From positions 1 to 64,000 of the forward strand of contig JACNKZ010000051.1 in NCBI GenBank assembly GCA_014381785.1: a stretch of DNA of 64,000 nt, given 5' to 3'. Position numbers and translations under genes: made by a program. Under the pieces are notes generated by a model that searched no databases, was not told the DNA's origin, and saw only the letters and a list, made by a program, of their open reading frames with translations. This document shows, one piece after another, positions 2,616-52,302 of the stretch. This stretch comes from Kiritimatiellota bacterium. GTDB lineage: Bacteria; Verrucomicrobiota; Kiritimatiellia; Kiritimatiellales; Tichowtungiaceae. How positions within the stretch are numbered: position 1 is the stretch's first letter; each line of letters begins with the position of its first letter.

Positions 2616-3296
2616 ATGGCCAGAAAAACCAAAGAAGAAGCGGCGGTAACCCGAGAACGTATGCTGACGGCGGCGCTCGATCTGTTTACTGAGAAGGGCT
2701 ATTCGCGCACAACACTGGTGGATATCGCCAAGCGCATTGGTATGACCCGCGGCGCGGTTTACTGGCATTTCGACGGCAAACCGGCCTTGCTGGCCGCGCT
2801 AATGGATCATGTCCATTTTTTAAAAGAGGACTGGGTGGAATCACAAATCCCGGATATCCAGACCCTCGAAGATTTACGCAGCGCATTCATTCTGTACGCC
2901 CGGGTGGTGGAGAGCGATCCGGTGATCCGCAAATTCGAGTTTTTCCTTAATTATCAGATGGAGTGGTCGGAAGAGCTGCTGGCCGAAACGCAGAAAAAGC
3001 TCAACGAGCTTCGTAAAAGTCCGCTGGAAAATTTTAGAGATTATTTCGAAGCACCGGCAATTGCCGTCCGCTTGCGGCCTGGAGTCGATCTGAATCAGTT
3101 GGTCATTACGCTGGCTTCCTTCTGGTGCGGGGCCTGTAAGATGTTTCTGGGGCGGCACTGTCCCGGCATCGAATTCGGACAGCGCTCGGATGAGGACATT
3201 CAGTTGCTGGGCGGAATTAATTTGGAGCAGACGATCGCAAACGGGTTCGATTTGATAATGTGCGGAGTTTTGAAAGAGGAGAGCGGTGATGAATAA
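2616..3296 (+). CDS. acrR: TetR-family repressor, AcrR type
   Basis: Predicted repressor of the downstream efflux genes. The N-terminal helix-turn-helix (about residues 12-55) reads TTLVDIAKRIGMTRGAVYWHF, very close to E. coli AcrR, including the MARKTKEEA start. The rest (to residue 226) is a helical ligand-binding domain of normal length. The start ATG follows a purine-rich AATGGGGA. The stop overlaps the acrA start by 8 bases (ATGAATAA), so repressor and pump are one transcript. An operator whose arms match the E. coli AcrR site lies just upstream. The inducer cannot be read from the sequence. Confidence 0.93.
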   Translation: MARKTKEEAAVTRERMLTAALDLFTEKGYSRTTLVDIAKRIGMTRGAVYWHFDGKPALLAALMDHVHFLKEDWVESQIPDIQTLEDLRSAFILYARVVESDPVIRKFEFFLNYQMEWSEELLAETQKKLNELRKSPLENFRDYFEAPAIAVRLRPGVDLNQLVITLASFWCGACKMFLGRHCPGIEFGQRSDEDIQLLGGINLEQTIANGFDLIMCGVLKEESGDE

Positions 3297-4476
3297 AAAA
3301 GCGGTTTTTAAAACAATTGGAGTGCTGATTGCCGGGGCGGCCATTGGCTGGTTTGTAAAAGGGATGATTCCAGCGGGCGGTCCGCCGCCGGGAATGGGTG
3401 GAATGCAGATGCCGCCGGCAACCGTGAAGATTCTCGCCGTGCAGGAAACGTTGCTCGATACGGCAGATGAATATATCGCCGCTGTCGAGCCGATGCAGGA
3501 AGTGATCCTCCGGCCCGAAGTGTCCGGACGGATTGATCAGGTGAACTTTACCGAAGGCTCTTTTGTTAAAGAGGGGGATCTGCTCTTCACCATCGACCGC
3601 TCCGCCTATCAGGCGACCGCCGATGCCGCCGAAGCCGAAATGGTTCGTGCGAAAAGGCGATACGAGCGCCTCCAGCAGGCCGACACACGCAGCGTCTCCG
3701 CCTCCGACCTCGAATCGGCCGAAAGCGACTACCTGCGCGGCAAAGCCGCATTTGAATTGGCAAAAGTTGACCTGGATTACACCGAGATCAAAGCTCCGAT
3801 CAGCGGACGCATCGGAAGCGCGATGATTAAAAAAGGCAACTACGTCACGCCCGTCACCGTTGAGCTTGCGCGTATCGTGCAGACCGACCCGATCCGTGTG
3901 GTTTTCTCGCAGACTGACCGCGATTATCTTGCTCTGCGCCGCCGCGAAATCGCCGGCGATGCCACCGCGCTCGAAGCGCGCGTGATTTTGCCGGACGGAT
4001 CCGTTTTAACGCGTCCCGCGTCACAGGTTCCACTCGAGACGAAGTCGAGAGAGGCTGGCGCTATTGCGACGGCAACGGAACGAAGGGAGGTGGCAAACAT
4101 CGGAAAAAAAGATTTTGATGATAACGCCATCAACCCCATGACCGGCACCATCGCCGTGCGCTACCTGTTTGACAATCCGGACGGGCTGCTGCTTCCGGGC
4201 GGTTATATCACGGTGCAACTCAGCAATCCTGCCGGCGAAACCGGAATCAAAATCCCGCTGCGTTCCCTGCTGATCGATCAGGACGGCGCGTACGTTTTGA
4301 CCGTTGATGAGGTGAGCGAAGTAGGTGTCATCCGAGTTGAGGCCGGCGATCAGATCGGGCCGGATGTCATCATCCGTTCCGGCTTAAAACCGGGCGACCA
4401 GGTCGTGATCGACGGCATCCAGAAAGCGCGTCCCGGCGCAACAGTTCAGGTGATTCCTTCGGAGGGTGCAGAATGA
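3289..4476 (+). CDS. acrA: RND efflux periplasmic adaptor (membrane fusion protein)
   Basis: Bridges the inner-membrane pump and the outer-membrane channel. A hydrophobic N-terminal segment (about residues 5-26) lacks a lipobox cysteine and probably acts as a membrane anchor. Then come the lipoyl-like half-motif ([19 protein letters not shown]), an alpha-helical hairpin (about 100-160), the beta-barrel and the end domain ([22 protein letters not shown]). The ATG at 3289 follows GAAAGAGGAGAG; a GTG at 3286 is a less likely start. Residues about 241-272 ([12 protein letters not shown] to VANIG) interrupt a normally short loop between the conserved LPDGS and DFDDNAINP blocks, and are encoded by dispersed repeats. 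The last 4 bases overlap the next gene. Confidence 0.93.
4008..4104 (+). repeat. in-frame repeat insertion inside acrA
   Basis: Bases 4008-4032 are identical to 20306-20330 in an intergenic region. Bases about 4046-4088 match, in reverse complement, repeat sequence near 12105-12135 and share a 14-base string with about 9050-9063. The insertion adds about 32 codons without disturbing the frame. Confidence 0.75.
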
Positions 4477-7400
4477 TTTCGCGTGTATTTATTGAACGCC
4501 CGCGACTGGCGGGTGTGATTTCCATCGTCCTGACGTTGGCGGGGATCATCTCCATCGGCTCGCTGCCGATTGCGCAGTACCCGCAGGTGACGCCGCCGCA
4601 GGTGGTCGTGCGCGCCGCCTATCCCGGTGCCGGTGCCGAAGTGCTGGCCGACACCGTCGCAGGCCCCATTGAAGACGCCGTTAACGGGGTCGATAACATG
4701 ATCTATATGTCGTCCACCTCCGACAGCTCCGGCGGGTATGGACTGACTGTGACTTTCGAGGTCGGCACCGATCCCGATATTGCGCAGGTGCAGGTGCAGA
4801 ACCGCGTCGCGCAGGCTGAACCGCTGCTGCCGATGGAGGTGACCCAGCAGGGGGTCACCGTCGAAACCGAATCGTCTGACATGCTCGGCTTCATCATGAT
4901 TCAGTCTCCGGACAATTCCCGCGAGGAGCTGTTCTTGAGCGACTACACCTTTAAGGTCATCAAGCCCGCGCTGGAGCGCATCCCCGGCGTCAGCCGCGCG
5001 CAGGTCTACGCCCCGCGCTACAGTATGCGCGTCTGGATGGATGCCGACCGCATTGCCGCGCTCGGCATGAACTCCGACGACGTGATCGGCGCGATCCGCA
5101 GCCAGAATATTCAGGCCTCGGTCGGGTCGGTCGGAGGCGCGCCCGGCAACGGCGCGATGGTCTACACGCTCAAAGCGGAAGGCCGCCTGAACGATGCGGA
5201 GAGTTTTGAGGATATTGTCATCCGCACCGGCGCCGACGGCGCGGTGGTCTACCTCAAAGATGTCGCGCGGGTTGAGAAGGGTGCGGACAATTATATGTTC
5301 GGCGCCAAATACAATGGACAACGCGCGGTGGCGATCGGCGTCAGCCGCTCCGCCGGTTCTAACGCGCTCGATACGATGGATGCCTTGCGCGACGAGCTCG
5401 ACAGTCTGACCGCGCAGTTCCCCTCCGGGATGGAAGTTATTCTGCCGTATGACGCCACCGATTTTGTGCGCTCCAGCATTCGCGAGATCGTCGCCACGCT
5501 ACTACTGACGGTTTTTCTCGTCGTGCTGGTCTGTTACATCTTTTTGCAGGACTGGCGTGCCGTGCTCATTCCGGCCATGACCATTCCGGTGTCGCTCTGC
5601 GCCACCTTCGCTGTGCTGATGGCTTTCGGCTACTCCATCAATACCTTGACGTTGTTCGGGCTGGTGCTGGCGATCGGACTGGTGGTCGATGACGCCATTG
5701 TGGTGGTCGAGCGCGTGCTGTATCTGATGGAACACGAAGGACTCGACCATAAAGCGGCCACTATTAAAGCGATGGAGCAGGTGACCGGAGCGGTCATCGC
5801 CACCACGCTGGTGCTACTGGCCATCTTCGTGCCGATCGGATTCGTCAGCGGCATCGTTGGTAAAATCTATCAGCAGTTCGCGGTTGCCATTTCCGCCGCC
5901 GTCTTCTTCTCAACCGTGAATGCGCTTACGCTCAGCCCTGCGCTTTGCAGTATTCTGCTGCGCGTTGTGAAACCTAAACAGCACGGCCCGTTGCGCTGGT
6001 TTAATACCGGACTCTCCCGGGTGCGCGGGCACTACGTGAATACTGCCGTGCGACTTTCGCGCCGACTCATTCTCACCGCCGTCATTCTGCTTGGCGTGCT
6101 GGGCGCCGCGGCTTTTCTCAGCGCGATGAACCCGACCTCCTTCCTGCCGGAAGAGGATCAGGGGGTCATCTTCGGGGCCTTGCAACTTCCGGAAGGGGCG
6201 ACTAAGGAACAAACCGAGGCGCTGATGGAGCGGGCCATTACGCCACTCGGCAAAGAGCCAGGCGTGGCTTACACCGTGGAGGTAACCGGTTTCAGCATGA
6301 TGGGCGGTTCCGGCGAAAACGTCGCCTTCTTCCTGTTCGGTCTCGACAGCTGGGACAAGCGCCGCAGTCCGGAACTTCAGATTGCCGCCATTCAGCAGAA
6401 CCTGCAGGGGCGTCTCATGATGGAGCCCGGCGCGCAGATCAACCTGTTTGTGCCGCCCGCGATCATGGGGCTCGGCGTCAGCGGCGGACTGGACATCAAA
6501 CTGCAGGCGATTGACGACGATGATCCGCAGAAGCTCAACGGTGTGATGCAGAGCTTCCTGATGCAACTCAACATGATGCCCGAAACCATGTTCGCGTTCA
6601 GCGGCTATGCCGCCAATACACCGCACCTGTTCCTTGAAGTGGATCGTGTGAAGGCCTCGCTGATGCAGGTGGAGGTCAGCGATATTTTCGCTGCGCTTCA
6701 AAACAACTTCGGTTCGCGCTATGTTAACGACGTAAACTTTGAAGGGCAGGTCAACCGGGTGGTCGTGCAGGCCGATTCGGTCTTCCGCGACAAGCAGGAT
6801 GATATTGAACGGCTGTACGTTAAAAGCCGCAACGGAGCGATGGTGCCGCTCGGCAGTGTGCTCAACATCACGCCGACCATCGCGCCGCGCGCCGTCGAGC
6901 GCTACAACAAATTTCCGTCCGCCTCCATCAGCGCCATGCTCATTCCAATTTACAGCAGTGGCGATGTGATGGCCAAAGTCAATGAGATGGCCAAGACCGC
7001 TCTGCCGACGGGTTATAATCTGGAGTGGTCGGGACTCAGCTATCAGGAGGCCAAAGCCGCCGGCGGTTCGTCCATTCTGATTGTAATGGCGCTGGTGTTC
7101 GGCTATCTGTTCCTCGTCGCTCAGTATGAGAGCTGGACCATCCCGCTGCCGGTGATGCTGTCCACCTCGGTCGCTGCGCTCGGTGCGCTGATCGCGCTTT
7201 TTGTGTTTAGAATGCCGCTCAGCATCTACGCCCAGCTCGGGCTGATCCTGCTGGTCGGCCTCGCCAGTAAAAACGCCATTCTGATTGTCGAGTTTTCCAA
7301 AACCCGCCGCGAAGAGGGGCTCTCGATTATTGATGCCGCCGCCGACGGAGCGGGCCAGCGCTTCCGCGCCGTACTGATGACCGCCTTCACCTTCATCCTC

Positions 7401-8948
7401 GGAATTTTCCCGATGGTTGTTGCCTCCGGTGCCGGCGCCAACGCGCGCCGTGCGATCGGTACGACCGTTTTCTGGGGTATGATGGCCGCCACACTCTTCG
7501 GCATTGTTCTGGTTCCCGCGCTCTACGTGCTGTTCCAGACCCTGCGCGAAAAGGGGCACCGGATTCGTCTCGGGACCGACAAGCTTCACTTGTTGGTCAT
7601 CCTGGTGATCCCGTTCTTTTTCGGCGGCTGTTTGACCGTCGGGCCGGATTACGAACAGCCCGAAGTTCCAATGGTTGGAGCTTCGGAGTTTGAAACGCCC
7701 GCCGAGTGGTGGACCACCCTCGGTGATCCGCTGCTGAGTGAACTCGTCAATGAAGCATTGACCAACAGCCCGGACGCGAAGTCGGCGGTCGCCGCCGTGC
7801 GCGCCGCCCGCGCCCAGCTTGGGCAGGTCCGCTCGTCGCTTGGTCCGGAGATTGATGCGCGCGGTAGTTTTTCGCGCAGCAGTCCGAGCGCCGAAGTGCC
7901 GATGGCCATTGATGGTGATTTGTACAGCGCCGGCTTTGACGCCGTGTGGGAACTTGACATCTTCGGCGGCGTGCGCCGCGCCAACGAAGCGGCCAAAGCC
8001 TATCTGCAGGGGCAGGATGCCATGCGTGCCGACGTTGACGTGTCGCTCGCCGCCGAAACGGCATCGGCCTATGTGCAACTGCGCGGTGCCCAGCAACTGC
8101 TATTCGTGTCCGTTAAAAATCTGGAACTGCAGCAGGAGACATTTGATCTGCTGCAGTCAAAATTTGACAGTGGGCTGATCAACGAGCTCGTGCTTCAGCA
8201 GGCGCGAGCCAACCTCGAAAGCACCCGCGCAATCGTTCCGACGTACGAAACCGGCGTCGAACAGACGCTCAATGCGCTGGCGGTGCTGATCGGCGCCATG
8301 CCCGGGTCGTTACATGAGCGCCTGAGTGCTTCCGCACACATTCCGGTGGCGACGATGGGCGACGTCACCGGCATTCCGGCCGACTTGCTGCGCCGCCGTC
8401 CCGACGTGCGGATTGCTGAGCGCAAGCTGGCTGAACAGACTGCCCGTATCGGCATCGCCAAGTCCGACTACTTTCCGAAGCTGACGCTTAACGGCTCCAT
8501 TGGCGTTGAGGCGCTCAGCTTTTCCGGACTGAGCGATCCGGGCAACGATACCTCCAGCTTCGGGCCTTCTATTCGCTGGGCGATTTTTCACAGCGGGCAG
8601 ATTCGCAATCAGGTCAAGGTGCAGACGGCGTTGCAGGAGCAAGCGCTGGCCGTTTACGAAAAGAGCGTGCTCTCTGCTGTGCAGGAAACGCGCGACGCGC
8701 TGACCGCCTTCCGCAACGAACAGTTGCGCCTCGACGCACTGACCGCCGCCACCGATGCCGCGCGCATTGCTGTTGAGCTGGTGGATGACCGTTATCAAAA
8801 CGGACTCGAGCCATTCGATACCGTGCTCGACGCGCAGCGCACACAGCTGCAGCTCGAAGAGACGAAGGTGCGGAGTCAGAGCGAAAGCACGCTCTCTGTC
8901 ATCCGCCTCTATAAGGCTCTCGGCGGCGGCTGGCAGCCGATGGAGTAG
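4473..8948 (+). CDS. acrB: fused RND multidrug pump and outer-membrane factor
   Basis: One 1491-codon frame joins two normally separate proteins. Residues 1 to about 1030 are a complete HAE1/AcrB-type proton-driven transporter: N-terminal [17 protein letters not shown], duplicated 6-TM halves with large periplasmic loops, and the TM4 proton-relay pair D406-D407 in [15 protein letters not shown] short basic linker leads to a signal-like hydrophobic stretch (about 1038-1050) and Cys1053 in a lipobox-like FFGGC. From there to the end is a NodT/OprM-type outer-membrane efflux lipoprotein ([30 protein letters not shown], two OEP repeats). No stop separates the halves. Either the junction is processed by signal peptidase II, or the second half starts independently; an AAGGGG near 7550 precedes only an ATT, with TTG/GTG codons further on. 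The gene overlaps acrA by ATGA. A sequencing slip at the junction cannot be excluded. Confidence 0.92.
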
Positions 8949-8985: not shown

Positions 8986-9006
8986 TTTTCCAATGGTTGG
9001 AAAAAT
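8986..9006. repeat. dispersed dyad copy, centre TGG
   Basis: Full-length copy with nine-base arms on both sides of TGG, 38 bases after the efflux gene stop. It may serve as its terminator hairpin. Confidence 0.9.
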
Positions 9007-10628: not shown

Positions 10629-10895
10629 ATGGAACCGATCCGGGAGTTGCTGAGCCGCATTCGCTGGGACGAGGAGTTCGGGCGGGGCGAGTTTGAAGTC
10701 GGCATCTATGACCGCGTGGCGGATGCCGTCTTTTTCCAACCTTTGGAAAACGTGTGTGTGGAGAAAGAAAACCACGCCGCGTTCACCCTTTGTGTGGATG
10801 AAACCGTGCAGACTATTCCTTTTCACCGCATTCGAGAGGTACACAAAAACGGGGTGTGCATCTGGCGCCGCGGAGCGTCGTCGGATGACTCCTAA
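10629..10895 (+). CDS. DUF504 / UPF0248 family protein
   Basis: A small cytoplasmic protein of 88 residues. It matches the DUF504 pattern: an N-terminal LLSRIRWD, a central [11 protein letters not shown], and the C-terminal [19 protein letters not shown] with its conserved IPxHRI. The biochemical role of the family is not settled. Residues about 35-41 (FFQPLEN) are encoded by a copy of the dispersed dyad, located where the family has a variable loop. It converges on the DUF6868 gene with a 10-base gap. Confidence 0.75.
10731..10750. repeat. dispersed dyad copy in DUF504 gene, centre CCT
   Basis: Near-perfect copy read as FFQPLEN in the host protein. Confidence 0.9.
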
Positions 10896-11288: not shown

Positions 11289-11642
11289 ATGAAAAGTTTA
11301 AAGTGGATTTTGGGGTTTGTTGCGGTCGTGCTGCTGTCGGGATGTGTTACGGGTTCCGGCGGCGGGGATGTCGCAGGGCTTGATCAGCTGGCTACAGAGG
11401 CCGCTGCAATGGGAAAAGCGGATCTTGAGGCGATGGTGTCGAAATACAAAGGGTTGATTGCGGAGAAAGTGGATGTGGCCGGCGCGCTGAAAGCGCAGCT
11501 CAAAGAGATTCCAATCGCAGATATGATGGGTGAAAAAGCCACCGCTCTGAAAACCGAGTTGAGCGATACCATGGCGCTGATATCCCAACTGAAAGACAAG
11601 TTGGCGGTGTATGCAAACGCCTTGAAAGTGGTTCAGCCGTAA
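11289..11642 (+). CDS. small lipoprotein with helical repeats
   Basis: The signal peptide ends in LLSGC (cysteine at about residue 19), marking an exported lipid-anchored protein. The mature part (about 98 residues) is Ala/Lys/Leu-rich and predicted helical, with segments such as LATEAAAMGKADLEAMVSKY and LKTELSDTMALISQLKDKL, so a coiled coil is likely. No family recognised. AAGGAGGCGAT precedes the start, and an intrinsic terminator follows. Confidence 0.8.
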   Translation: MKSLKWILGFVAVVLLSGCVTGSGGGDVAGLDQLATEAAAMGKADLEAMVSKYKGLIAEKVDVAGALKAQLKEIPIADMMGEKATALKTELSDTMALISQLKDKLAVYANALKVVQP

Positions 11643-11673: not shown

Positions 11674-11703
11674 AACCTGACTTAAAAAGTCAGGTTTTAT
11701 TGT
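11674..11703 (+). terminator. terminator of lipoprotein gene
   Basis: Perfect 10-bp stem AACCTGACTT/AAGTCAGGTT with loop AAA, then TTTATTGTT. Confidence 0.92.
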
Positions 11704-11789
11704 TGCGGGAAAGAAGTGGCTGTTTAGAATGCGGGAATAACGAGAGGCACATGAGGTGCCCGACAATGAGTGGGAATAAGGAGAAATTC

Positions 11790-11945
11790 ATGAAAGTAGC
11801 AAAATGGTTGATCGCCCTGATGGCTGTAATGGTTTTTGTCGGATGTGAAAAATCGGACGAGCAGAAACTGCAGGATGCAGCGGATGCTGCGCAGAAAGAT
11901 GCGGCAAAAGCAGTTGAGGGAGTGAAGGTCCCTTCTCTCAAGTAA
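11790..11945 (+). CDS. tiny lipoprotein, 51 residues
   Basis: Starts at ATG 11790 behind AAGGAGAAATTC. An upstream in-frame extension to 11700 runs through the previous terminator and is not credible. The lipobox is VFVGC (cysteine about residue 19). The mature peptide is only about 32 residues, Asp/Ala/Lys-rich (EKSDEQKLQDAADAAQKDA), reminiscent in size of entericidin-type peptides but without recognised similarity. It parallels the neighbouring lipoprotein in layout. Confidence 0.75.
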   Translation: MKVAKWLIALMAVMVFVGCEKSDEQKLQDAADAAQKDAAKAVEGVKVPSLK

Positions 11946-12325
11946 TCAGGGGACGTTTCGATGAAGCGCTTGCGCAGGAGACGGCGCAACCGTTTTTTTA
12001 TAGAATAAAAGGAGGAGTCTGCGGGTTTTCACCGCAGCAGGAGGCCGCCTCGGGATCGGGGCGGCCTTTTTATTTTTCCAATGTTTGCCGCTGCACTTTG
12101 TTCCGTTGCCGTCGCTGCGCGCCAGCCTCCCTGCCCGCAGTGCTACGCACAGCGTTGCAGGCGGGTCTCGACTGCGTCTCGGGTGGAACGCTCGACGGAG
12201 AAGTTTCCAATCATTAGAAAATTTATTGTCGCGGGCCTGCCGGGCGTGTAATCTGCATCCTTCATGCGCCGCGCGCTGTGCGTACGCGACGATTTAGACG
12301 AAACGAAAATCCAAGGAGAGCAACA
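11946..12325. other. terminator and repeat fragments before EF-G-like gene
   Basis: Holds a terminator (12042-12076). A block at 12085-12190 shares sequence with the acrA insertion and the 8949-9412 repeats (GTTCCGTTGCCGTCGC followed by GCCAGCCTC), and there is a degenerate dyad at 12204-12221. No additional gene is supported. Confidence 0.6.
12042..12076 (+). terminator. terminator after tiny lipoprotein
   Basis: Stem AGGCCGCC/GGCGGCCT (8 bp, 10-base loop) followed by TTTTATTTTT. A smaller GCGG/CCGC hairpin lies just upstream. Confidence 0.85.
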
Positions 12326-14365
12326 ATGAAGGGTCTTCCAATTGCAGGTGTGCGTAATTTCGCGTTGATGGGGCATACGGGGAGCGGAAAGACCTCATTG
12401 TTGGACGTGATGCTCAACATCCTTGGAACCAATGACCGCATCGGCTCGCCGGACGATAAAACCAGTATGGCGGACTGGACCCCCGAAGAGCAGGAACACA
12501 AGATTTCGATTTTCGCCAAACCCTTTGACGGTGTCTACACCGCCGCCAGCGGCAAACAGCGCCGCTTCGTCATCACCGACACCCCCGGCTATGCCGACTT
12601 TATCGGCCAGCTCATCTGTGCCGCCGAAACCAGTGACGCCGCGCTGCTGGTCGTCGACTCCGTCTCCGGCATTCAGGTCGGCACCAACCGTGCCTGGAAA
12701 GTATGCGAACAGCGCAACCTGCCGCGCGGTATTGTCATTAACGGATTAGATAAGGAAGATGCCAACTTCGACAAAACGCTCGCGCTGATTAAAGCGCAGT
12801 GGGGCGACAGCCGGTGCGTGCCGGTTGTTCTGCCGACCTCCGATGGCAAATCCGAAGTCGACCTGCTCAACACCCCGACCGACCAAGTGCCGGAAGATAT
12901 GGCGGATGCCGTCAAGGCCATCCGCGACCACCTGATCGAGCTCGCTGCTGAAACCGACGACGCGCTGATGGAAAAATATTTTGAGGGGCAGGAGCTCACC
13001 GCCGATGAATTTTCTGACGGTCTGCGCAAAGCGGTTCACGATGCGATCCTGATTCCTGTTTTCGCCTGCTCGGCCAAAAGCCATGTCGGCGTAAAAGAAA
13101 CGATGGATTCTATCAGCCGACTCTTCCCGTCACCGGAAGACTATCCAATTAAATGCGCTGACGGCCACGAAGTGCTCACCTGCGAAAACGAACCGTTTGC
13201 CGGCATCGTTCGCCGCTCGGTCAACGACCCCTTCGTCGGACAGCTCAGCTTTGTGCGTGTGTATCGCGGCACGCTTAAGCCCAACACCGAAGTGTTCAAT
13301 GCCACCAAAGGCGAAAAAGAGCGCATTGGCAACATCCTGTTTGTGAACGGCAAGAAACAGACCGACTGTCAGGAAGCCAAAGCCGGGGACGTTGTGGCGA
13401 TTCCCAAGTTGAAAAACACCTTCCTCAACGACACGCTCTGCGCCATCGGCGACGACACCGTGTTTAAACCGATCGAATTCCCGAACCCCGTCGCCGCCTA
13501 CGCAGTCGAACCGAAGACCAAAGGCGATGAAGACAAAATCGGAGTGGCGCTGCAGCGCGCGGCCGACGAAGACCCCTCCATTCGCGTTGAACGCAATAAA
13601 GAGACCCACGAAACCATTCTGTGGGGGATGGGCGACATGCACCTCGACGTCACCCTCGAACACATCAAGCACCGCAGCAAAGTCGACATCACCCACCACA
13701 CCCCGAAAGTGGCCTATCGCGAAACCATCACCGGTGTGGGAGAAGGACATCACAAACATAAGAAACAGTCCGGCGGTCGCGGGCAGTACGGAGAGTGCTA
13801 CATTCGCATCCGCCCGAAAAGCTCACCCGAGGAAGACGACTTTGCCAACAAGATTGTCGGCGGTTCCATTCCCGGAAACTTTATTCCCGCCTGTCAGAAA
13901 GGGTTTGTGGAAGGGATGGCCAAAGGACCGCTCGTCGGCGCAGCCGTCGGTAACGTTGTGGTTGAGCTCTATGATGGCTCCTACCACGATGTCGACTCCT
14001 CCGAGGTGGCTTTCAAAATTGCTGGCGCACGCGCGCTGCATCAGGCTATCGAAAACGCCAATCCGGTTCTGCTCGAGCCGATCATGAGCGTCAAGGTGAT
14101 GGTGCCTGACGAATTCCTGGGGGATATCAACGGCATTCTCAACACCAAGCGCGGACGCATTATTGGGATGGGTCTAGAGGACGGGATGCAAGTGATCGAA
14201 GCGGACGTGCCGCAGGTGGAAATGTTCAAATTCTGTTCCGAGCTGCGCTCCATCACCAGCGGGCAGGGTTCCTTCGAAATGAAATTCGACCGCTACGAAC
14301 AGGTTGCCGCCAACATCGCCCAGAAAGTGATCGCCGCCGCGCAGAAAGAAAAAGAAGAGGCCTGA
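12326..14365 (+). CDS. EF-G-like translational GTPase (FusA2 type)
   Basis: A ribosome-interacting GTPase paralogous to elongation factor G. The start at ATG 12326 has AAGGAG upstream; the protein is 679 residues. G1 is GHTGSGKT and G3 is DTPGYADF. G4 reads NGLD where canonical factors have NKxD, so guanine recognition may be altered. Domain II follows (FAGIVRRSVNDPFVGQLSFVRVY), then domains III to V (DEDPSIRVERNKETHETILWGMG, GGRGQYGEC, HDVDSSEVAFKIAGARALHQA). The short G domain and divergent switch regions fit the EF-G-like branch rather than true FusA. The gene stands alone with its own terminator. Confidence 0.88.
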   Translation: MKGLPIAGVRNFALMGHTGSGKTSLLDVMLNILGTNDRIGSPDDKTSMADWTPEEQEHKISIFAKPFDGVYTAASGKQRRFVITDTPGYADFIGQLICAAETSDAALLVVDSVSGIQVGTNRAWKVCEQRNLPRGIVINGLDKEDANFDKTLALIKAQWGDSRCVPVVLPTSDGKSEVDLLNTPTDQVPEDMADAVKAIRDHLIELAAETDDALMEKYFEGQELTADEFSDGLRKAVHDAILIPVFACSAKSHVGVKETMDSISRLFPSPEDYPIKCADGHEVLTCENEPFAGIVRRSVNDPFVGQLSFVRVYRGTLKPNTEVFNATKGEKERIGNILFVNGKKQTDCQEAKAGDVVAIPKLKNTFLNDTLCAIGDDTVFKPIEFPNPVAAYAVEPKTKGDEDKIGVALQRAADEDPSIRVERNKETHETILWGMGDMHLDVTLEHIKHRSKVDITHHTPKVAYRETITGVGEGHHKHKKQSGGRGQYGECYIRIRPKSSPEEDDFANKIVGGSIPGNFIPACQKGFVEGMAKGPLVGAAVGNVVVELYDGSYHDVDSSEVAFKIAGARALHQAIENANPVLLEPIMSVKVMVPDEFLGDINGILNTKRGRIIGMGLEDGMQVIEADVPQVEMFKFCSELRSITSGQGSFEMKFDRYEQVAANIAQKVIAAAQKEKEEA

Positions 14366-14398: not shown

Positions 14399-14438
14399 CC
14401 CCGTTTTTCCAAACCTTGGAAAAACGGGGTTTCTTTTT
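14399..14438 (+). terminator. terminator built on a dispersed dyad
   Basis: A perfect 14-bp stem (CCCCGTTTTTCCAA/TTGGAAAAACGGGG) around ACC at 14399-14429, followed by TTTCTTTTT. The dyad (centre ACC) forms the top of the stem and flanking CCCCG/CGGGG extends it. Confidence 0.93.
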
Positions 14439-24203: not shown

Positions 24204-25333
24204 CGCACGGCCCTTTCATAGATTTCGAGCGTTTTGTGTGCCGCCACATTCCAGTTGAACTGCGCGGCGTAGGCCAGCCTGGCCTGACGCTTCGCTTCGC
24301 TCCAGCCTTCGGACAGCGTTTTTTCCAAACATTGGAAAATCGAGGCGGTACTGTACGGGTCAAATTTCGGCACCACATCGCCCGCGATCTCACGCATGGA
24401 GGATGTATCGGAGCAGATTACCGGCGCGCCGCAGGCCAGCGCTTCCACAATCGGAAAGCCGAAGCCTTCGAACAGCGACGGAAACGCCATCAGATCACAG
24501 GCGCTGTAGAAGGCGGGCAGGTCGGCCAGCGGAACAAAGCCGGGAAATACAATGTCGTCGTGCACCGGGCTGGTGGCCGCCCGCTCGCGGATGGCGTCCG
24601 CACCGTTCCAGTCCGCGCCCGGCAGCACCAGCTTGTGCGCGCTGTCGGTTTCGGCTTTGTAACGCTCGAACGCCTCAATCAGCCGGACATGGTTTTTGGC
24701 AGGGTGCTCCAGCCGTGAGAGATAAATGATGAAGGGGGCATCAAGGCCGTAGTTTTCGGCCAGTCGCGCGCGGGCCGCCTCTTTTTCCACTGGTCGGAAA
24801 ATGCTGTGGTTAATCCCGGAGTAAATCACCGTCACTTTTTCCTCCGGTACACCGACCAGTTCCACGATGTCTTTTTTGGAGTAGTGACTCACTGTGATGA
24901 TTTCATCGGCGTTGCGGATTTGTGCCGGAACGATGCGGCGGTTGTAGAACATCCGCGCGGCATCATATTTCGCATCCATTGTCAGCGTGGCGACATCATG
25001 CACCGTCGCGACAATCGGACAGGGTTTAACCAGCGGAATACGGCGGTAGCTCGGCACGTGCAACAGATCGAACTTCCTCTTTTTCCCCAGCATTGGAAGA
25101 ATCGTGTTGTGCCAGGCGATATTGACGACTGGATTGGCGATCAGGCCGGGATAGAGCGATTTGCGGAAGTTGGGGGCTGTCAGTTCAATCAGATCCGCCT
25201 CACGCAGCGGCATCATGATGTCGTAGCGGTTGGCGGAATCTTCTATTTGAAGCGTCCGGATCAGTTCGCGGATATACGAGGCGACACCGGAGCGCCCTCC
25301 CTGCATTACAAACGCTGAAAAACCAATGTTCAT
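24200..25333 (-). CDS. glycosyltransferase family 4
   Basis: A GT-B fold retaining transferase (377 residues). The N-terminal glycine loop is MQGGRSGVASYIRELIRTL and the central ITVSHYSKKDI is typical. The donor-site block SLFEGFGFPIVEALACGAPVI has the EGFG-x7-E motif. The dyad at 24319-24339 is read as FQCLEK in the C-terminal helix region. First gene of the overlapping set that ends with the response regulator; UDP-glucose dehydrogenase is 50 bases upstream, suggesting uronic-acid-containing glycans. Confidence 0.9.
   Translation of the reverse strand: MNIGFSAFVMQGGRSGVASYIRELIRTLQIEDSANRYDIMMPLREADLIELTAPNFRKSLYPGLIANPVVNIAWHNTILPMLGKKRKFDLLHVPSYRRIPLVKPCPIVATVHDVATLTMDAKYDAARMFYNRRIVPAQIRNADEIITVSHYSKKDIVELVGVPEEKVTVIYSGINHSIFRPVEKEAARARLAENYGLDAPFIIYLSRLEHPAKNHVRLIEAFERYKAETDSAHKLVLPGADWNGADAIRERAATSPVHDDIVFPGFVPLADLPAFYSACDLMAFPSLFEGFGFPIVEALACGAPVICSDTSSMREIAGDVVPKFDPYSTASIFQCLEKTLSEGWSEAKRQARLAYAAQFNWNVAAHKTLEIYERAVR
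24319..24339. repeat. dispersed dyad copy in GT4 gene, centre ACA
   Basis: Full-length copy, read FQCLEKT. Confidence 0.9.
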
Positions 25334-26854: not shown

Positions 26855-28459
26855 TCACCCGCGGTAGCGGTTGGTGATGGGCATGCGGCGGTCACGGCCG
26901 AAGGATTTCGGCGTGATCTTGATGCCGGGCGGGCCTTGGCGGCGTTTGTACTCACTCAGATCGACCAGCCGGACCGCCTGATGCACGGCGGCTTCGTCGA
27001 AGCCGGCGGCCAGCATGGCGTCGATGCCCATATCTTTTTCCACATAGGCTTCCAGAATGGGGTCGAGCACCTCGTAAGGCGGCAGGCTGTCGGTGTCCTG
27101 CTGGTTGGGCCGCAACTCGGCCGACGGAGGGCGCTCAATGGTGGACGGCGGAATAACCACGCTCTGTTCGTTGCGCCAGCGGCAGAGGTCGAACACGAGC
27201 GTTTTGGGGACGTCTTTGATGACGGCAAGACCGCCGGCCATATCGCCGTAGAGCGTGCAGTAGCCGGTGGCGTATTCGCTCTTGTTTCCGGTCGAGAGCA
27301 CCAGCCAGCCGTTTTTGTTGGATAGAGCCATGATGAGTGTGCCTCGGATCCGGGCCTGTAAATTCTCTTCCATCAAGCCGGTTTGATCGTTTGGGTTGGC
27401 TTGCCCGCCGCAGCCTTGGCAAAGGCGGGAAAGTTCGTCGGTGAATTTTCCAAAGATTGGAAAAATCGGGATGGTGTGGAATTCCACGCCGAGATTGGCG
27501 GCGATTTCTTCGGCGTCGGAGAGGGTTTCGTCCGATGAATATTGCGACGGCATGGTGACGGCGGCGACGCGGTCGGCTCCGAGCGCGTCGACGGCGATCG
27601 CCAGCACCAGCGCCGAGTCGATGCCCCCGCTGACGGCAACTACGGTTTTTTTGAAACCGTTTTTGTCGACGTAGTCGCGCAATCCGGTCTTCAGCGCTTC
27701 GTAGACCTCTTCGAGTGGTTCCAATGCTTGGAAAATTCCCGTGCCGGCGGTTAGTGTGCCCTCCTGAAACAGCGGAGCGCACGCGGCGAGCGTGCCGTCG
27801 ACTTCAAACGCGGCGCTTCCGCCGTCGAAGACGAGCTCGTCCTGTCCGCCGACCTGATTGCAGAAGAGCAGGGGGGCGCTCATCGCGCGGGCGGCGGCGG
27901 AGAAGACGGCTTCGCGTTCGAGCCGTTTGCCGCGGTGATAGGGCGAGGCGGAGAGGTTGACGACCAGATCGGGTTGCTTCGCCGCCAGCGCTTTGCAGGC
28001 TTCGCCGTCGGCGAGCCAGGAGTCTTCGCAGATGTGGATGCCGACCTTTGTGCCGAAGGCATCGAAAGTGAAGGGTTCGTTCCCGGCATCAAACACGCGT
28101 TTTTCGTCGAAGACGCCATAGTTGGGCAGTAGCATTTTGCGGTAGATGCCGATGATTTTTCCGCCGTGGAAAACTGCGGCGGCGTTAAAGCGGTCGACCG
28201 GTGCGCCGACGATGCAGAAGGCATCGGCGGGCAGCTCGTTGGCCAGACGGTCGAGTTGCTTGGCGCAGTCCTTAATGAAGTGCGGGCGCAGAATCAGATC
28301 TTCCGGCGGATAGCCGCACAGCGAGAGTTCGGGGAAGACAATTAGTTGCGCGCCGTCTGCGGCGGCGGATTTTGCGTAGTCGATCATCCGGTCAGCATTC
28401 TGCTCCAGCGCCCCGACGGTCGGGTTAAACTGAATCAGCGCTGTTTGCAGAGCGTGCAT
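26855..28459 (-). CDS. nadE: glutamine-dependent NAD+ synthetase
   Basis: Amidates deamido-NAD using glutamine. An N-terminal nitrilase-type glutaminase (Glu in FPELSLCGYPPEDL, Lys in YRKMLLPNYGVF, Cys in GIHICEDSW) precedes the synthetase with P-loop VAVSGGIDSALVLAIA. Total 534 residues, normal for the family. Two dyad copies are read in frame: FQALEP (27719-27735) in the interdomain linker and FPIFGK (27446-27464). Next to the latter lies an in-frame hairpin repeat (27400-27429) read as RLCQGCGGQAN, in the variable loop before the conserved ENLQARIRG. The start overlaps the guaB stop by one base. Confidence 0.95.
   Translation of the reverse strand: MHALQTALIQFNPTVGALEQNADRMIDYAKSAAADGAQLIVFPELSLCGYPPEDLILRPHFIKDCAKQLDRLANELPADAFCIVGAPVDRFNAAAVFHGGKIIGIYRKMLLPNYGVFDEKRVFDAGNEPFTFDAFGTKVGIHICEDSWLADGEACKALAAKQPDLVVNLSASPYHRGKRLEREAVFSAAARAMSAPLLFCNQVGGQDELVFDGGSAAFEVDGTLAACAPLFQEGTLTAGTGIFQALEPLEEVYEALKTGLRDYVDKNGFKKTVVAVSGGIDSALVLAIAVDALGADRVAAVTMPSQYSSDETLSDAEEIAANLGVEFHTIPIFPIFGKFTDELSRLCQGCGGQANPNDQTGLMEENLQARIRGTLIMALSNKNGWLVLSTGNKSEYATGYCTLYGDMAGGLAVIKDVPKTLVFDLCRWRNEQSVVIPPSTIERPPSAELRPNQQDTDSLPPYEVLDPILEAYVEKDMGIDAMLAAGFDEAAVHQAVRLVDLSEYKRRQGPPGIKITPKSFGRDRRMPITNRYRG
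27400..27429 (-). repeat. hairpin repeat (TCCTCC family relative) inside nadE
   Basis: CTTG-CCCGCC-GCAGCCTTGGCAAA-GGCGGG has the architecture of 35361-35393 with complementary changes in the arms. It is read on the minus strand as part of RLCQGCGGQAN. Confidence 0.7.
27446..27464. repeat. dispersed dyad copy in nadE, centre AGA
   Basis: Perfect TTTTCCAA/TTGGAAAA arms; read FPIFGK. Confidence 0.92.
27719..27735. repeat. dispersed dyad copy in nadE, centre TGC
   Basis: TTCCAA-TGC-TTGGAAAA; read FQALEP. Confidence 0.88.
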
Positions 28460-31075: not shown

Positions 31076-31909
31076 ATGTTAATTGTTCGATCCAAAAGCA
31101 CGGATGTGTACCGCAATCTGGCGGTGGAAGAGTGGTTGCTTGATCATGCGCCGTCGATGCCGGTTCTATTCCTCTACGTCAACGACCCGTGCGTGGTGAT
31201 CGGCAAAAACCAAAACCCGTGGCGCGAATGCAAACTCACTCTGATGGACGAGGAGGGCGTTCCGCTGGCGCGGCGCATTTCCGGTGGCGGCGCGGTCTAT
31301 CACGACCCCGGCAATCTCAACGTCAGCGTGATGGTTCCGCGCACGGAGTACGTGGAACAAAAACAGTACGACCTGATTTTGCAGGCCCTCGAAGCGCGTG
31401 GCATTCGCGGCTCCAAAATGGGCCCCAATTCATTGGCCGTCGAAGACCGGAAATTTTCAGGGCAGGCGTTTTGTCATCGTCGTGAGCGCACGCTGCACCA
31501 CGGCACGATTCTGGTGAGCACCGACCTCGCGCGGCTCGGTCGCTACCTCGGCCCGGAGCTTGACGGCATCGAAACCAAAGCCGTGGCTTCGGTTCCCGCC
31601 AACGTGGTCAACCTTTCGCAGTTCGCCCCCGAGCTGACGGTTGAGCGTTTATCTGAAGTACTTATTGAACAGTTCAACGAACTGTATGGGAGTGATGGCG
31701 TGGTGGAGTGTTGGGCGGATGAGGATATTCATAAAAACTGCACTGCAACGCAGTTTCTTCCAATCATTGGAAAAATTTCTTCCAAGGATTGGAAACTCGG
31801 GCATACTCCAAAATTTACGTTTCAGGATCTGGAGGTCGAAAGAGGCCGGGTCGTGAATATAGAGGGGTCGCCCTCATTTGATGATTTTTTGAGAACAAGG
31901 AGCCTTTAA
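31076..31909 (+). CDS. lplA: lipoate-protein ligase A family
   Basis: Attaches lipoate to E2 subunits or the glycine cleavage H protein. The 277 residues include the substrate loop VPLARRISGGGAVYHDPGNLN, the KFSGQAF motif and a C-terminal accessory domain. Two dyads in tandem (31758-31772 and 31780-31794) encode LPIIGKISSKDWK in the C-terminal part. A C7 tract lies directly before the ATG in place of a ribosome-binding site. The stop overlaps the next start by one base. Confidence 0.9.
   Translation: MLIVRSKSTDVYRNLAVEEWLLDHAPSMPVLFLYVNDPCVVIGKNQNPWRECKLTLMDEEGVPLARRISGGGAVYHDPGNLNVSVMVPRTEYVEQKQYDLILQALEARGIRGSKMGPNSLAVEDRKFSGQAFCHRRERTLHHGTILVSTDLARLGRYLGPELDGIETKAVASVPANVVNLSQFAPELTVERLSEVLIEQFNELYGSDGVVECWADEDIHKNCTATQFLPIIGKISSKDWKLGHTPKFTFQDLEVERGRVVNIEGSPSFDDFLRTRSL
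31758..31772. repeat. dispersed dyad copy in lplA, centre TCA
   Basis: First of two adjacent copies; read LPIIGK. Confidence 0.9.
31780..31794. repeat. dispersed dyad copy in lplA, centre GGA
   Basis: Second copy seven bases on, in a different reading phase (SKDWK). Confidence 0.9.
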
Positions 31910-33890: not shown

Positions 33891-34403
33891 TCAGGTTTCA
33901 AGGTTGTACAGTCTGAGAATCGCATCGGCCCGACCGGCGGGGTCGAGGCGGTCACCATCGATTTGATGCTCAATGGCATCGTACAGCGGTTGGCGGGTTT
34001 GGAGAATCCCGCTGATCTGCTCCTTTTTATCGCCGGAGAGCAGGGGGCGGGTTGTATCGTTTCCCAAACGTTGGAAAATGGTTGCCGGCGAGGCGGTCAG
34101 GCAGACCACCAGACCGTTCTGCTGAAAGTCGGCCACGTTATCGGGATTAAGAACCACGCCGCCGCCGGTTGAAATAATCAGCCCTTCGCGCTGCGACAGT
34201 TCATGAGCCAGTGCCCGTTCCATTTCGCGGAACGCCGGTTCACCGTCGGTTGCGAAAATCTCTGAAATCGGCTTCCCGGCGCGCTCTTCGATGATGGAAT
34301 CCATATCCACCAGCTCCATGCCGGTGCGTTCGGCCAGTACACGGCCGGTCACCGTCTTGCCGGTTCCCATAAACCCGATCAAAATAATATTTCGTTTGCT
34401 CAT
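33891..34403 (-). CDS. aroK: shikimate kinase
   Basis: Phosphorylates shikimate in aromatic amino-acid synthesis. The 170 residues have the P-loop IGFMGTGKTVTGR, the shikimate-binding DMDSIIEERAGKPISEIF, and STGGGVVL. The dyad at 34060-34078 is read as FQRLGND in the lid region, before TTRPLL, whose arginine is conserved. Cytosolic; no other aro gene is adjacent. Confidence 0.94.
   Translation of the reverse strand: MSKRNIILIGFMGTGKTVTGRVLAERTGMELVDMDSIIEERAGKPISEIFATDGEPAFREMERALAHELSQREGLIISTGGGVVLNPDNVADFQQNGLVVCLTASPATIFQRLGNDTTRPLLSGDKKEQISGILQTRQPLYDAIEHQIDGDRLDPAGRADAILRLYNLET
34060..34078. repeat. dispersed dyad copy in aroK, centre ACG
   Basis: CCAA-ACG-TTGGAAAA with one change in the left arm (TTTCCCAA). 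Confidence 0.78.
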
Positions 34404-35310: not shown

Positions 35311-35350
35311 AAGGCCGGATTTTCCAAACATTGGAAAACCCGGCCTTAGT
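35311..35350 (+). terminator. terminator built on a dispersed dyad
   Basis: AAGGCCGG (35311-35318) and CCGGCCTT (35340-35347) extend a perfect dyad TTTTCCAA-ACA-TTGGAAAA (35320-35338), giving a 17-position stem with one mismatch. Only a weak T-rich tail follows. It lies between convergent genes. Confidence 0.8.
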
Positions 35351-37990: not shown

Positions 37991-40546
37991 TTACTTCCAC
38001 TCATGCTTGGGATATCTTCCCTTCAGCTCTTTTTTAATGAGCGGGTAGGAGTTGGCCCAGAAGCTTTTCATGTCGGTGGTTTTTTGCTGCGGGCGTTGAT
38101 TGGGCGCGAGGGCCTCCACCACCACCGGGATTTGACCGAAGCCGATGCGCGGGCTTTCTTCGAGCCCGTAGAGCTTCTGGATGGTGGCAGCGATGACGGG
38201 CGGGAGTCCCGCTTCGTAACGAACCTGTGCGCTGATGCCGCTGGGCAGTTTGATTCGTTCGGGGGCTTGTTTGTCGACCATCTCGCGCTGAACCGGCGTC
38301 AGCCACGACTTAACGACTTTTTTGACTGGGCGCTCTTTGAGGTCCTTGCGGCAGACCGCGCCGAAGCAGATTTCCTGAATCATCGCTTCGCGCGCTTCAT
38401 CGTCGATTTTCGGTATTCCATAATCCGGGCAGTTTGTTGCCAGACAGTTAACCCGCGCGATCCATTTTTCAATCTGCTCATCCCACATCGGGATGGTCAG
38501 CCGCCCGGCAATGACCTCGGCGGCAATGATCTCAGCGGCCTGCTGCGGGTCGACATCCTGCGTGCATTTCGACTCCAGCTCGAGCCCGCGGAATTCTTTC
38601 CACTGTTTGGAAACCACCCGCTTGAGAATCGGATTAAACACCGCCTCGGTTTTTTCGATCACATCGTCGGGGAACAACTCTTCGAGCCATTCCTCTTCAA
38701 TGGCGGTGCAGAGGTTGAGGCGCACGTTCAAATCGCGGCTGCCCTCAATTTCGGCGATTTCGGCGGCAACGAACAGCTCGGCGTCGCGCACCATGCTGTC
38801 GCGGTCGAGATCGCCGACCCGGCCGTGAACCACCTGACAGTGCAGCGTGCCCTGATCGCGCCGCTTGGCGACATGATCCGAAAAGGCGACCAAAATGCAC
38901 TTTTGCAGATCTTCATCCTCGGGCGGGCGGGAATTAATTTTTAGTCCTTCGCCCGCGGCGATTTTGAGGAACCGTTCGTAGAGCGGCTTCACCTGTCGCG
39001 CGGCCCCGCCGTGCACACCGAGCTTGCGGCAGGCGTCGGCGCGGTAATTGTTTTTATCGGCAAAGCTCCAGGCGCGCATCAGACGCTTGAAATCGGAGAT
39101 GTCGTCGTCGCCGAGCAGATCGTCGCGCTCGCCGCGCGTCTGTTTGCCTTGGTTGCGTTCGAGAATGCTACGCCCCTGTGTGAGCGCGGCGATCAGGCAG
39201 GCCTGCCGAACACATTCATATTGTTCGGCGGCGATGAGCATGCGCGCATAGCGCGGATGCATGGGGAACGAAACCATTTTCCGCCCGATCTCGGTCAGTT
39301 GACCTTCATGATCCAACGCGCCCAAATCCGTGAGCAGGGTCAGCGTGCGTTCCAGCGATTCCGGATTCGGTTTTTCCAACCATTGGAAACCTTCGATGTC
39401 TTCGATGCCGCCAGCCTTTAAGGTTAAGACTACTTCGGCCAGATCGTGCCGCAGAATCTCGGGCAGCTCCTGCGCGGGACGGGCGGCGTGTTCTTTTTCG
39501 GTCCAGAGGCGCATGCAGGTTCCGGGGGCGGTGCGCCCTCCGCGTCCGGCGCGCTGCGCGGCCGAGGCCTGGCTGATGCGCTCGACGAGCAGGGTGTCGA
39601 TCCCGCGGCGCGGGTCGTAGCGCGCGATGCGCGCGAGGCCGGAGTCGATCACCACGCGGATGCCGTCGATGGTGATCGAGGTTTCGGCCACGTTGGTGGA
39701 GACGACGACTTTGCGTTGGCCGACATCACCGACCGCCGCGTCCTGTTCGTTGGCGCGCAGCTCGCCGTGCAGAGGCAGTACCGCAAATTCGCGCGCGCAT
39801 TTTTTTCCACGGATCGCTTCGACGGTGCGGGCGATTTCATAGGCGCCGGGCATAAAGACCAGCACATCGCCCTCGGCGCCGCTCTTGATTGCCTGTTCAA
39901 ACGCATCGGCGGCGGCTTCCCAGACGGGGTGATGATTAAAGTCGATCCGTTTGGGCGAATACTCGATTTCGACCGGATACATGCGTCCTTCGCTTTTGAG
40001 CTCGCGGCAGGGGGCGAGGTAGTCGCGCAGCGGCCCGGCGTCGAGCGTGGCCGACATGACGATCACCTTCAGATCGGGTCGGGTTTTTTGCAGAAGCAGG
40101 GCGCGGGCGAGGGTGATGTCGCCGTAGATGTGGCGCTCGTGAAATTCATCAAAAATGATGGTCGAGATACCTTTGAGGTCCGGGTCGGAGAGAAACTGGC
40201 GCAGGAGAATTCCTTCGGTGACGTAGCGGATCAGGGTATCTTTGGAGATGTGGCGCTCCATGCGAACCTGATAGCCGACTTCGCCGCCGAGTTCGACCCC
40301 GCGCTCAAAGGCGACGCGTTTAGCAAGTAGGCGTGCCGCCAGCCGTCGCGGCTGCAGCACGACCACTTCGCCGGGCCCGGCTTCGCCGCAATCGAGCACC
40401 ATCTGCGGAATCTGGGTCGACTTGCCCGATCCGGTCGGCGCTTCAATCAGTAGCCGGTTCTCGCAGCGCAGCGCAGCGGTCAGCTCATCGCGCAGTTCAT
40501 AAATTGGAAGTTCTTTGGGGTTCATGAAGGGAAAGAGTTTAACCAT
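37991..40546 (-). CDS. hrpB: DEAH-box ATP-dependent helicase, HrpB/HrpA type
   Basis: An RNA helicase of 851 residues. Walker A is IEAPTGSGKSTQIPQ, motif II is IIFDEFHERH (DEFH variant, usual in this group), motif III MSATLD, and motifs IV to VI run through TNVAETSITIDGIRVVIDSG and QRAGRGGRTAPGTC. The winged-helix and HrpB C-terminal region follow. The dyad at 39371-39389 encodes FQWLEK in the ratchet region. Start 40546 or the in-frame ATG at 40525 are both possible; neither has a strong site. Confidence 0.88.
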   Translation of the reverse strand: MVKLFPFMNPKELPIYELRDELTAALRCENRLLIEAPTGSGKSTQIPQMVLDCGEAGPGEVVVLQPRRLAARLLAKRVAFERGVELGGEVGYQVRMERHISKDTLIRYVTEGILLRQFLSDPDLKGISTIIFDEFHERHIYGDITLARALLLQKTRPDLKVIVMSATLDAGPLRDYLAPCRELKSEGRMYPVEIEYSPKRIDFNHHPVWEAAADAFEQAIKSGAEGDVLVFMPGAYEIARTVEAIRGKKCAREFAVLPLHGELRANEQDAAVGDVGQRKVVVSTNVAETSITIDGIRVVIDSGLARIARYDPRRGIDTLLVERISQASAAQRAGRGGRTAPGTCMRLWTEKEHAARPAQELPEILRHDLAEVVLTLKAGGIEDIEGFQWLEKPNPESLERTLTLLTDLGALDHEGQLTEIGRKMVSFPMHPRYARMLIAAEQYECVRQACLIAALTQGRSILERNQGKQTRGERDDLLGDDDISDFKRLMRAWSFADKNNYRADACRKLGVHGGAARQVKPLYERFLKIAAGEGLKINSRPPEDEDLQKCILVAFSDHVAKRRDQGTLHCQVVHGRVGDLDRDSMVRDAELFVAAEIAEIEGSRDLNVRLNLCTAIEEEWLEELFPDDVIEKTEAVFNPILKRVVSKQWKEFRGLELESKCTQDVDPQQAAEIIAAEVIAGRLTIPMWDEQIEKWIARVNCLATNCPDYGIPKIDDEAREAMIQEICFGAVCRKDLKERPVKKVVKSWLTPVQREMVDKQAPERIKLPSGISAQVRYEAGLPPVIAATIQKLYGLEESPRIGFGQIPVVVEALAPNQRPQQKTTDMKSFWANSYPLIKKELKGRYPKHEWK
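39371..39389. repeat. dispersed dyad copy in hrpB, centre CCA
   Basis: TTTTTCCAA-CCA-TTGGAAA; read FQWLEK on the minus strand. Confidence 0.9.
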
Positions 40547-41577: not shown

Positions 41578-41623
41578 TATTATTAATTAAAAATCTAATT
41601 TTATTGTATTATCAGTCGGAAGG

Positions 41624-41642
41624 TTTCCAATGCTTGGAAAAA
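41624..41642. repeat. dispersed dyad copy, centre TGC
   Basis: First of three copies in 113 bases between the DUF2089 and rdgB genes. Confidence 0.9.
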
Positions 41643-41652
41643 CGGTTCGCTA

Positions 41653-41671
41653 TTTTTCCAATGATTGGAAA
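41653..41671. repeat. dispersed dyad copy, centre TGA
   Basis: Second of the three; TTTTTCCAA-TGA-TTGGAAA, intergenic. Confidence 0.9.
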
Positions 41672-41706
41672 GCCATATAGCATGGTGGCATCTGTTTTGC
41701 GCGCAT

Positions 41707-45796: not shown

Positions 45797-46194
45797 AACT
45801 TGAAACTCGAAATTTGAAACTCGGAACAACAGCTCTTCTGCTGCTTCTTTTTCCAATGCTTGGAAAAGCGGTGGAGGGCTACAACCTGGTTTGCGACGCG
45901 CCGGTCTATACGTTCGGAACGGTTGATCAAACGGCGGTCATCACCAATGTGTTTATGATTCGCAACGAGGGCGACCTCACGTATGTTCATAAATATACTC
46001 ACACCTCGTGTGGCTGCACCAAAGGACAGCTGGAAAAGCGGATGATCGGGCCGGGTGAGACGGTAAAGATGACCGCGGTGTACAAAGCAGAAAACCGTAA
46101 AGGAAAGCAGAAAAAGGCCCTGCGGCTGATTTCGATGGATTCTATAGAGCCGGCGATTATCCTTTATATGGAAGGGTTTGTGAACATTCCCTGA
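45793..46194 (+). CDS. DUF1573-family exported protein
   Basis: 133 residues with a signal peptide and a DUF1573-type beta domain: [23 protein letters not shown], then [24 protein letters not shown] with the conserved SCGC. Localisation is probably periplasmic. The N terminus ([11 protein letters not shown]) is encoded by a GAAACTCGAAATTTGAAACTCG simple repeat seen elsewhere. The hydrophobic core and cleavage region ([13 protein letters not shown]) are encoded by a dyad copy at 45848-45867. Overlaps ruvB by ATGA. Confidence 0.82.
45848..45867. repeat. dispersed dyad copy in DUF1573 signal peptide, centre TGC
   Basis: Full copy; read FPMLGK at the end of the signal peptide. Confidence 0.92.
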
Positions 46195-52276: not shown

Positions 52277-52283
52277 CTATTTG

Positions 52284-52302
52284 TTTCCAAACCTTGGAAA
52301 AA
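52284..52302. repeat. dispersed dyad copy, centre ACC
   Basis: Between divergent icd and the glycosyltransferase gene, 33 bases before the latter's chosen start. Confidence 0.88.

Follow-up and report, generated by a model that had tools for sequence, protein, structure and literature searches.

The window that we analyzed, i.e., the whole stretch of 64,000 nucleotides, contains one open reading frame in which an AcrB-like efflux pump reads into an outer-membrane factor (OMF), and this raises the question of whether the joint is real and, if so, how one chain could supply proteins to two membranes. We consider it likely that the locus encodes a tripartite-efflux polyprotein, in which Lgt would acylate an internal signal and signal peptidase II would then cut it, so that a pump for the inner membrane and a lipoprotein channel would arise in equal amounts. 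The operon has the order TetR-family regulator, adaptor, fusion, with the following features:

2616-3296, + strand: TetR-family regulator, the likely local repressor of the operon (Pfam TetR_N, E 1.4e-16).
3286-4476, + strand: periplasmic adaptor (RND_mfp), a separate gene (TIGR01730, 222 bits, cut-off 94.9).
4473-7538, + strand: HAE1-type RND permease part, complete, residues 1-1022 (ACR_tran, TIGR00915).
7539-7589, + strand: basic linker after transmembrane helix 12 (TM12), n-region of the predicted internal signal peptide (charge, variability).
7590-7628, + strand: hydrophobic h-region and lipobox, 13 residues (PROSITE PS00013 match).
7629-7631 (TGT), + strand: Cys1053, the predicted acylation site and position +1 of the predicted cut G1052/C1053 (invariant).
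7629-8945, + strand: NodT/OprM/OprN-type OMF, complete, 439 aa when mature (TIGR01845, OprN alignment).

Stop-to-stop translation showed that positions 4473-8948 on the + strand form a single ORF of 1491 aa, which begins with ATG and has no internal stop. In a profile search of the fusion, Pfam ACR_tran spans residues 2-1022 end to end (E 3e-301) and Pfam OEP matches the C-terminal part (E 7e-47). The permease part scores 1086.7 bits against NCBIfam TIGR00915 (HAE1), above the cut-off of 940.35, and 321.8 bits against the heavy-metal family TIGR00914 (CusA/CzcA), below the cut-off of 701.45, while the OMF part, from about residue 1074, scores 338.2 bits against TIGR01845 (NodT), above the cut-off of 210.05. 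These findings bear out the claim of an earlier, sequence-only reading that a complete AcrB-like pump is fused to a complete OprM/NodT-like factor. AcrB/MexB-type PDB chains align with the pump part along its length, and the closest PDB match of the OMF part is OprN (5IUY), of which residues 2-446 align with OMF residues 3-438 (E 3e-73); this alignment begins at the residue next to the lipid Cys, i.e., mature residue 2, and runs to the end of the OMF. The predicted folds of both parts are settled by these matches to solved AcrB/MexB and OprN. The proton-relay motifs of the permease are intact (VVDDAIVV from residue 404, with further motifs from 932 and 962), and equivalents of AcrB D407, D408, K940, R971 and T978 are all present. 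By sequence, the permease and the OMF are each complete within the fusion, and we predict drug efflux as the function of the fused pump and channel.

The stop codon of the adaptor gene overlaps the ATG of the fusion (ATGA). In about 19 fused loci the gene immediately before the fusion is an adaptor with 33-65% identity, and the two adjoin in most fused relatives whose sequence extends that far; a TetR homologue is likewise found upstream in several of them. The best NCBIfam likeness of the window's regulator is of the MtrR/AcrR type, at a score under the cut-off. PADLOC gave no match, and a reading of the locus as a defence system was rejected on this ground.

Inspection of the joint revealed the order basic linker, 13-residue hydrophobic stretch, FFGG/C1053, where the slash marks the predicted cut. 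We compared this region across 35 NodT-type fusion loci, with each contig counted once. The Cys is kept in 35 of 35, in all lineages, and 31 of 35 match the PS00013 pattern, the window's fusion among them, so that the retained lipobox with Cys1053 which had been proposed for this joint is upheld. In an alignment of 20 sequences over the joint (A1; 52-79% identical to the window over the joint and OMF), Gly1052 and Cys1053 are invariant (20/20, pairwise identity 1.00 each). The mean pairwise identity is 0.78 in the last 75 pump residues, 0.345 in the linker, where no column is invariant, 0.49 in the hydrophobic stretch and 0.395 at positions +2/+3, then 0.97 in the VGP motif and 0.35 in the following 20 residues, i.e., the lipobox is a conserved island inside a variable joint. 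The hydrophobic stretch is 12-21 residues long (mean 15) in the 35 fusions, and is preceded by a net positive charge in 34 of them, with a mean of +2.8 over 12 residues, as against a mean of -1.7 across the 20 residues past the Cys. This difference follows the positive-inside rule and fits an Nin-Cout insertion. The joint has the make-up predicted for a lipoprotein signal peptide, in the orientation that would be needed behind a cytoplasmic C terminus. The predicted signal is internal (residues 1023-1052) and falls outside the class of N-terminal signals with a start codon of their own. Genes for LspA (PF01252, E 6e-40) and Lgt (PF01790, E 4e-73) are present in the same genome, both above cut-off. 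Two small predicted lipoproteins elsewhere in the window (11289-11642 and 11700-11945), with ordinary N-terminal signals, illustrate the lipobox style of the organism (LLSGC and VFVGC).

One objection to a natural fusion is that a frameshift, a missing base or a missed stop has joined two genes in the assembly. The source genome is a draft of 88 contigs, and in other phyla the pump and OMF are encoded by neighboring genes, some of them in the same frame with one stop between (L130, L138, L096). We therefore sought the same fusion in relatives, as the sequence-only reading had proposed. About 20 related loci, drawn from independent assemblies, contain it with no stop, at 59-82% identity. Full-length, one-frame matches among 58 relatives were confirmed by stop-to-stop translation, for example in the closed single-contig genome G009 and in G003, G004, G033, G008, G007, G017, G020, G016, G026, G015 and others. 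The same joint is thus present in about 20 independent assemblies, including a closed genome, and in several other lineages. The frameshift or missing base that might have revealed two genes at the junction was not seen, and the frame is conserved in the relatives; this conservation refutes an artefact, to which we now assign a practically negligible probability.

Only loci verified by stop-to-stop translation are included in our fusion counts. The open-frame length given by the genome search was rejected as proof of fusion since the length given may run across one stop codon or take in an overlapping frame that is unrelated; it was misleading for this reason in L096, L138, L130, L170, L172 and L173, and L074, L075, L076, L077 and L170 were not fusions once translated. 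Among the best matches listed, at least 21 of the 388 genomes of the phylum contain a verified NodT-type fusion, as do at least 4 of 149 Planctomycetota genomes. None was verified among the matches listed for 150 Pseudomonadota genomes, where five long-frame candidates (among L171-L176) each proved to be two genes.

By parsimony, a tree of 78 pump domains requires 10 or more changes of the fused state, 8 of which are forced by well-supported branches; these changes include losses as well as gains, and long branches leave some deep joins unsure. The window's clade contains 16 fused and 5 unfused rows. Other fused lineages are L089 (Lentisphaerae); L097; L066 with L071/L073; L169 (Planctomycetota); a distant RND family (L067-L070, L072, L107 (Brocadiaceae), L167 and L168); and L083 and L084, in which the channel is of the TolC type. 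The pumps of these lineages are as little as 23-30% identical to one another, and each NodT-type fusion retains the lipobox. On this tree, several separate lineages carry the fusion, both in Verrucomicrobiota sensu GTDB and in Planctomycetota. In L090, L113, L130, L138 and L096 the OMF frame follows right after the pump stop in the same frame, so that loss of that one stop codon would suffice to create a fusion. The reverse may also have occurred: the unfused pumps L020-L024 (in G024, G019, G018, G023 and G014), 71-73% identical to the window's pump, are nested among fused pumps; each stops just short of where the signal peptide would be and is not followed directly by an OMF gene. The simplest reading is that these five have secondarily lost their OMF part, with independent fusions as the alternative, and a pump left alone indicates that the pairing of pump and OMF can be given up. 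G020 contains both a fused and an unfused copy. Two fusions from another family of the class (G303:C42, i.e., L078/L085, and G336:C123, i.e., L079) are 75-79% identical to the window over the joint and OMF, and copies from the same genus are mostly 63-70% identical over this region (75% in G009); this closeness hints at possible horizontal transfer within the class. The window's own genome encodes another RND permease (G000:C75:14731-17778), with an in-frame TAG within the matched stretch.

If the frame is genuine, the OMF could still be made, additionally or mainly, from an internal non-ATG start, which would yield two proteins with no cleavage. Weak candidates exist in the window (TTG 7590, TTG 7593, GTG 7605 and, less likely, ATT 7563), and AAAAGGGG at 7549-7556 is suitably spaced for ATT 7563. 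However, when we looked for in-frame ATG, GTG or TTG in the 31 codons that lie 10 to 40 residues ahead of the Cys, no start codon was conserved at the junction of the 35 fusions: the candidates vary by locus in both position and codon, and 6 of 35 (L015, L017, L027, L097, L066 and L073) contain none of the three codons. The conserved start near 7563-7590 that the sequence-only reading had considered as a sign of separate genes is therefore missing. None of the window's four candidates is conserved in the relatives, in which the position of ATT 7563 is mostly ATC, TTC, CTC or GTT, and a Shine-Dalgarno-like word precedes a candidate start in only one of the 35 fusions (L167), well upstream, leaving 34 with none at a candidate. 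Internal initiation would also leave the open frame between the two parts unexplained, and we give it only a slim chance.

The nature of the cleavage signal bears on the two other alternatives, i.e., that the chain is never cut, with pump and OMF covalently joined in a single trans-envelope unit, or that it is cut by a different enzyme, either signal peptidase I or a quality-control protease, with the OMF not acylated. One open frame in all relatives is what an uncut chain would give, and sequence alone does not prove cleavage. However, the variable linker contrasts with the conservation of the Cys and of the small residue at -1, and the alignment with mature OprN begins directly past the Cys. 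In OprM, OprN and CusC the lipid Cys sits at the outer membrane, and because the mature OMF would begin at this Cys there is essentially no spare chain to cross the periplasm, which makes an intact joint sterically unlikely. In addition, we identified four fusions in the phylum with a TolC-type, i.e., non-lipoprotein, channel (L083, L084, L178 and L185), and these contain, at the position of the lipobox, a hydrophobic stretch followed by a different and equally functional-looking site of the AxA/Q type that resembles those cut by signal peptidase I (GNARA/QT in L084, AVA/QT in L178, AKARA/QE in L185 and NLSA/QD in L083). Internal signal and channel type correspond in 39 of the 39 fusions examined (35 NodT-type and 4 TolC-type). 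Such a match is predicted by selection for cleavage by the matching peptidase and is predicted neither by an uncut chain nor by internal initiation alone; an uncut chain is, in our judgment, very improbable. The AxA-like sites of the TolC-type fusions, and the four lipobox regions of 35 that do not strictly fit PS00013, could be taken to favor another protease for the NodT-type fusions as well, but a Cys that is invariant in 35 of 35 is expected if acylation matters, and cutting by another enzyme seems to us hardly credible.

The preferred reading therefore remains a lipoprotein signal that is cut behind the pump, in agreement with the proposal that the polyprotein would need internal translocation and cleavage, which the conserved signal supports. 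We infer the following route of translocation, acylation, cleavage and outer-membrane targeting from the sequence. Pump and OMF would be translated as one chain; TM12 of the pump would end in the cytoplasm, where the basic linker would remain; and the 13-residue hydrophobic segment would enter the Sec translocon as a 13th membrane segment with its C-terminal side out, acting as a lipoprotein signal peptide with no start codon. Lgt would then acylate Cys1053, signal peptidase II (LspA) would cut between Gly1052 and Cys1053, and the released OMF, now a lipoprotein, would follow the usual sorting route to the outer membrane; the pump would stay in the inner membrane with a short additional C-terminal tail. 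Residue +2 to Cys1053 is Leu and not Asp, which in E. coli holds lipoproteins back at the inner membrane, a rule that may not be that of the host phylum. Together with the separate adaptor, pump and OMF would form an exporter resembling AcrAB-TolC. The recurrence of the arrangement in related bacteria makes it most likely that a single chain is produced in the cell and cut, each half then going to a different membrane. To our knowledge, no Lgt/LspA substrate with an internal lipoprotein signal behind a polytopic protein has been described experimentally.

The fusion would also fix the pump-to-channel ratio at 1:1, which is what a tripartite assembly of 3:6:3 stoichiometry (PMC4446572) requires. 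Equimolar supply of pump and channel is thus a plausible benefit, and the adaptor, needed in twofold amount, is encoded separately and upstream; this stoichiometric advantage is again one that we infer. Beyond what the sequence-only reading had noted, the fusion appears in several lineages and always with an internal segment that resembles a signal peptide. We lean towards the broader view that RND pump-OMF fusions of the PVC bacteria are a general, repeatedly formed class of signal-peptidase-processed polyproteins, in which the signal would always match the channel (signal peptidase II for NodT, signal peptidase I for the TolC type), the products would reach two membranes in equal amounts, and Lgt and LspA would act behind a 12-helix protein. 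If cleavage is confirmed, the locus would clearly exemplify a bacterial polyprotein with its halves in different membranes, and a signal peptide behind a large polytopic protein would have to be an acceptable substrate for Lgt and signal peptidase II. Natural 1:1 pump-channel units would be useful for understanding how tripartite pumps set their stoichiometry, and for annotation they are a warning that a second protein is concealed in long "RND permease" entries.

A further feature of the window is a dispersed palindrome, TTTTCCAA-N3-TTGGAAAA, with about 15 sites in 64 kb where shuffled sequences predict none. Sites are located at 8986-9004, 10732-10750, 14405-14423, 24321-24339, 27446-27464, 31756-31774, 34060-34078, 35320-35338, 39372-39390, 41623-41641, 41654-41672, 45849-45867, 52283-52301 and 52553-52571. 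One lies 38 bp 3′ of the fusion stop and another 40 bp 3′ of a gene for an EF-G-like GTPase (12278-14365; start read as GTG, full set of EF-G domains), with others inside open frames. Exact sites number 168 in the window's own genome and 5-219 in genomes of the same genus, against zero for the reversed control pattern.

We found no description of natural RND-OMF fusions or of their processing in the literature searched, which is weak evidence since subscription papers lay mostly outside it, and in the reviews PMC8277102 and PMC4446572 the passages found are silent on natural RND-OMF fusions. Plasmid searches showed two-gene systems, with mexF and oprN, for example, listed separately. The locus shares with MexEF-OprN, AcrAB-TolC and MexAB-OprM three complete parts, a TetR gene upstream, a pump of family TIGR00915 and an OMF closest to OprN, but in those systems pump and OMF are separate genes, whereas here they are in one frame and the OMF has no start of its own. 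Fusions of CzcA/CusA-type pumps with TolC-like domains in Bacteroidota are plausible, since similar domain architectures exist, and would have the same layout, with the OMF behind an RND permease in one chain; here, an HAE1 pump is instead joined to a NodT-type lipoprotein with a lipobox, while the TolC-type fusions have AxA/Q. Among RND-OMF fusions, what appears to be new here is that the pump is of the HAE1 type, the channel is a lipoprotein and a lipobox is conserved inside the chain. FbcH, the cytochrome b/c1 precursor of Bradyrhizobium, also joins a polytopic inner-membrane protein to an exported protein through an internal signal peptide that is cleaved; in FbcH, however, the enzyme is signal peptidase I and both products are at the inner membrane, whereas here the signal is a lipobox and the products would be in two membranes. 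With OprM, OprN and CusC, lipoproteins of the NodT family, the OMF part shares the order n-region, h-region, lipobox and the mature start C-x-[ST]-V-G-P, but here the signal peptide has no start codon and is located behind the 12th transmembrane helix of the pump.
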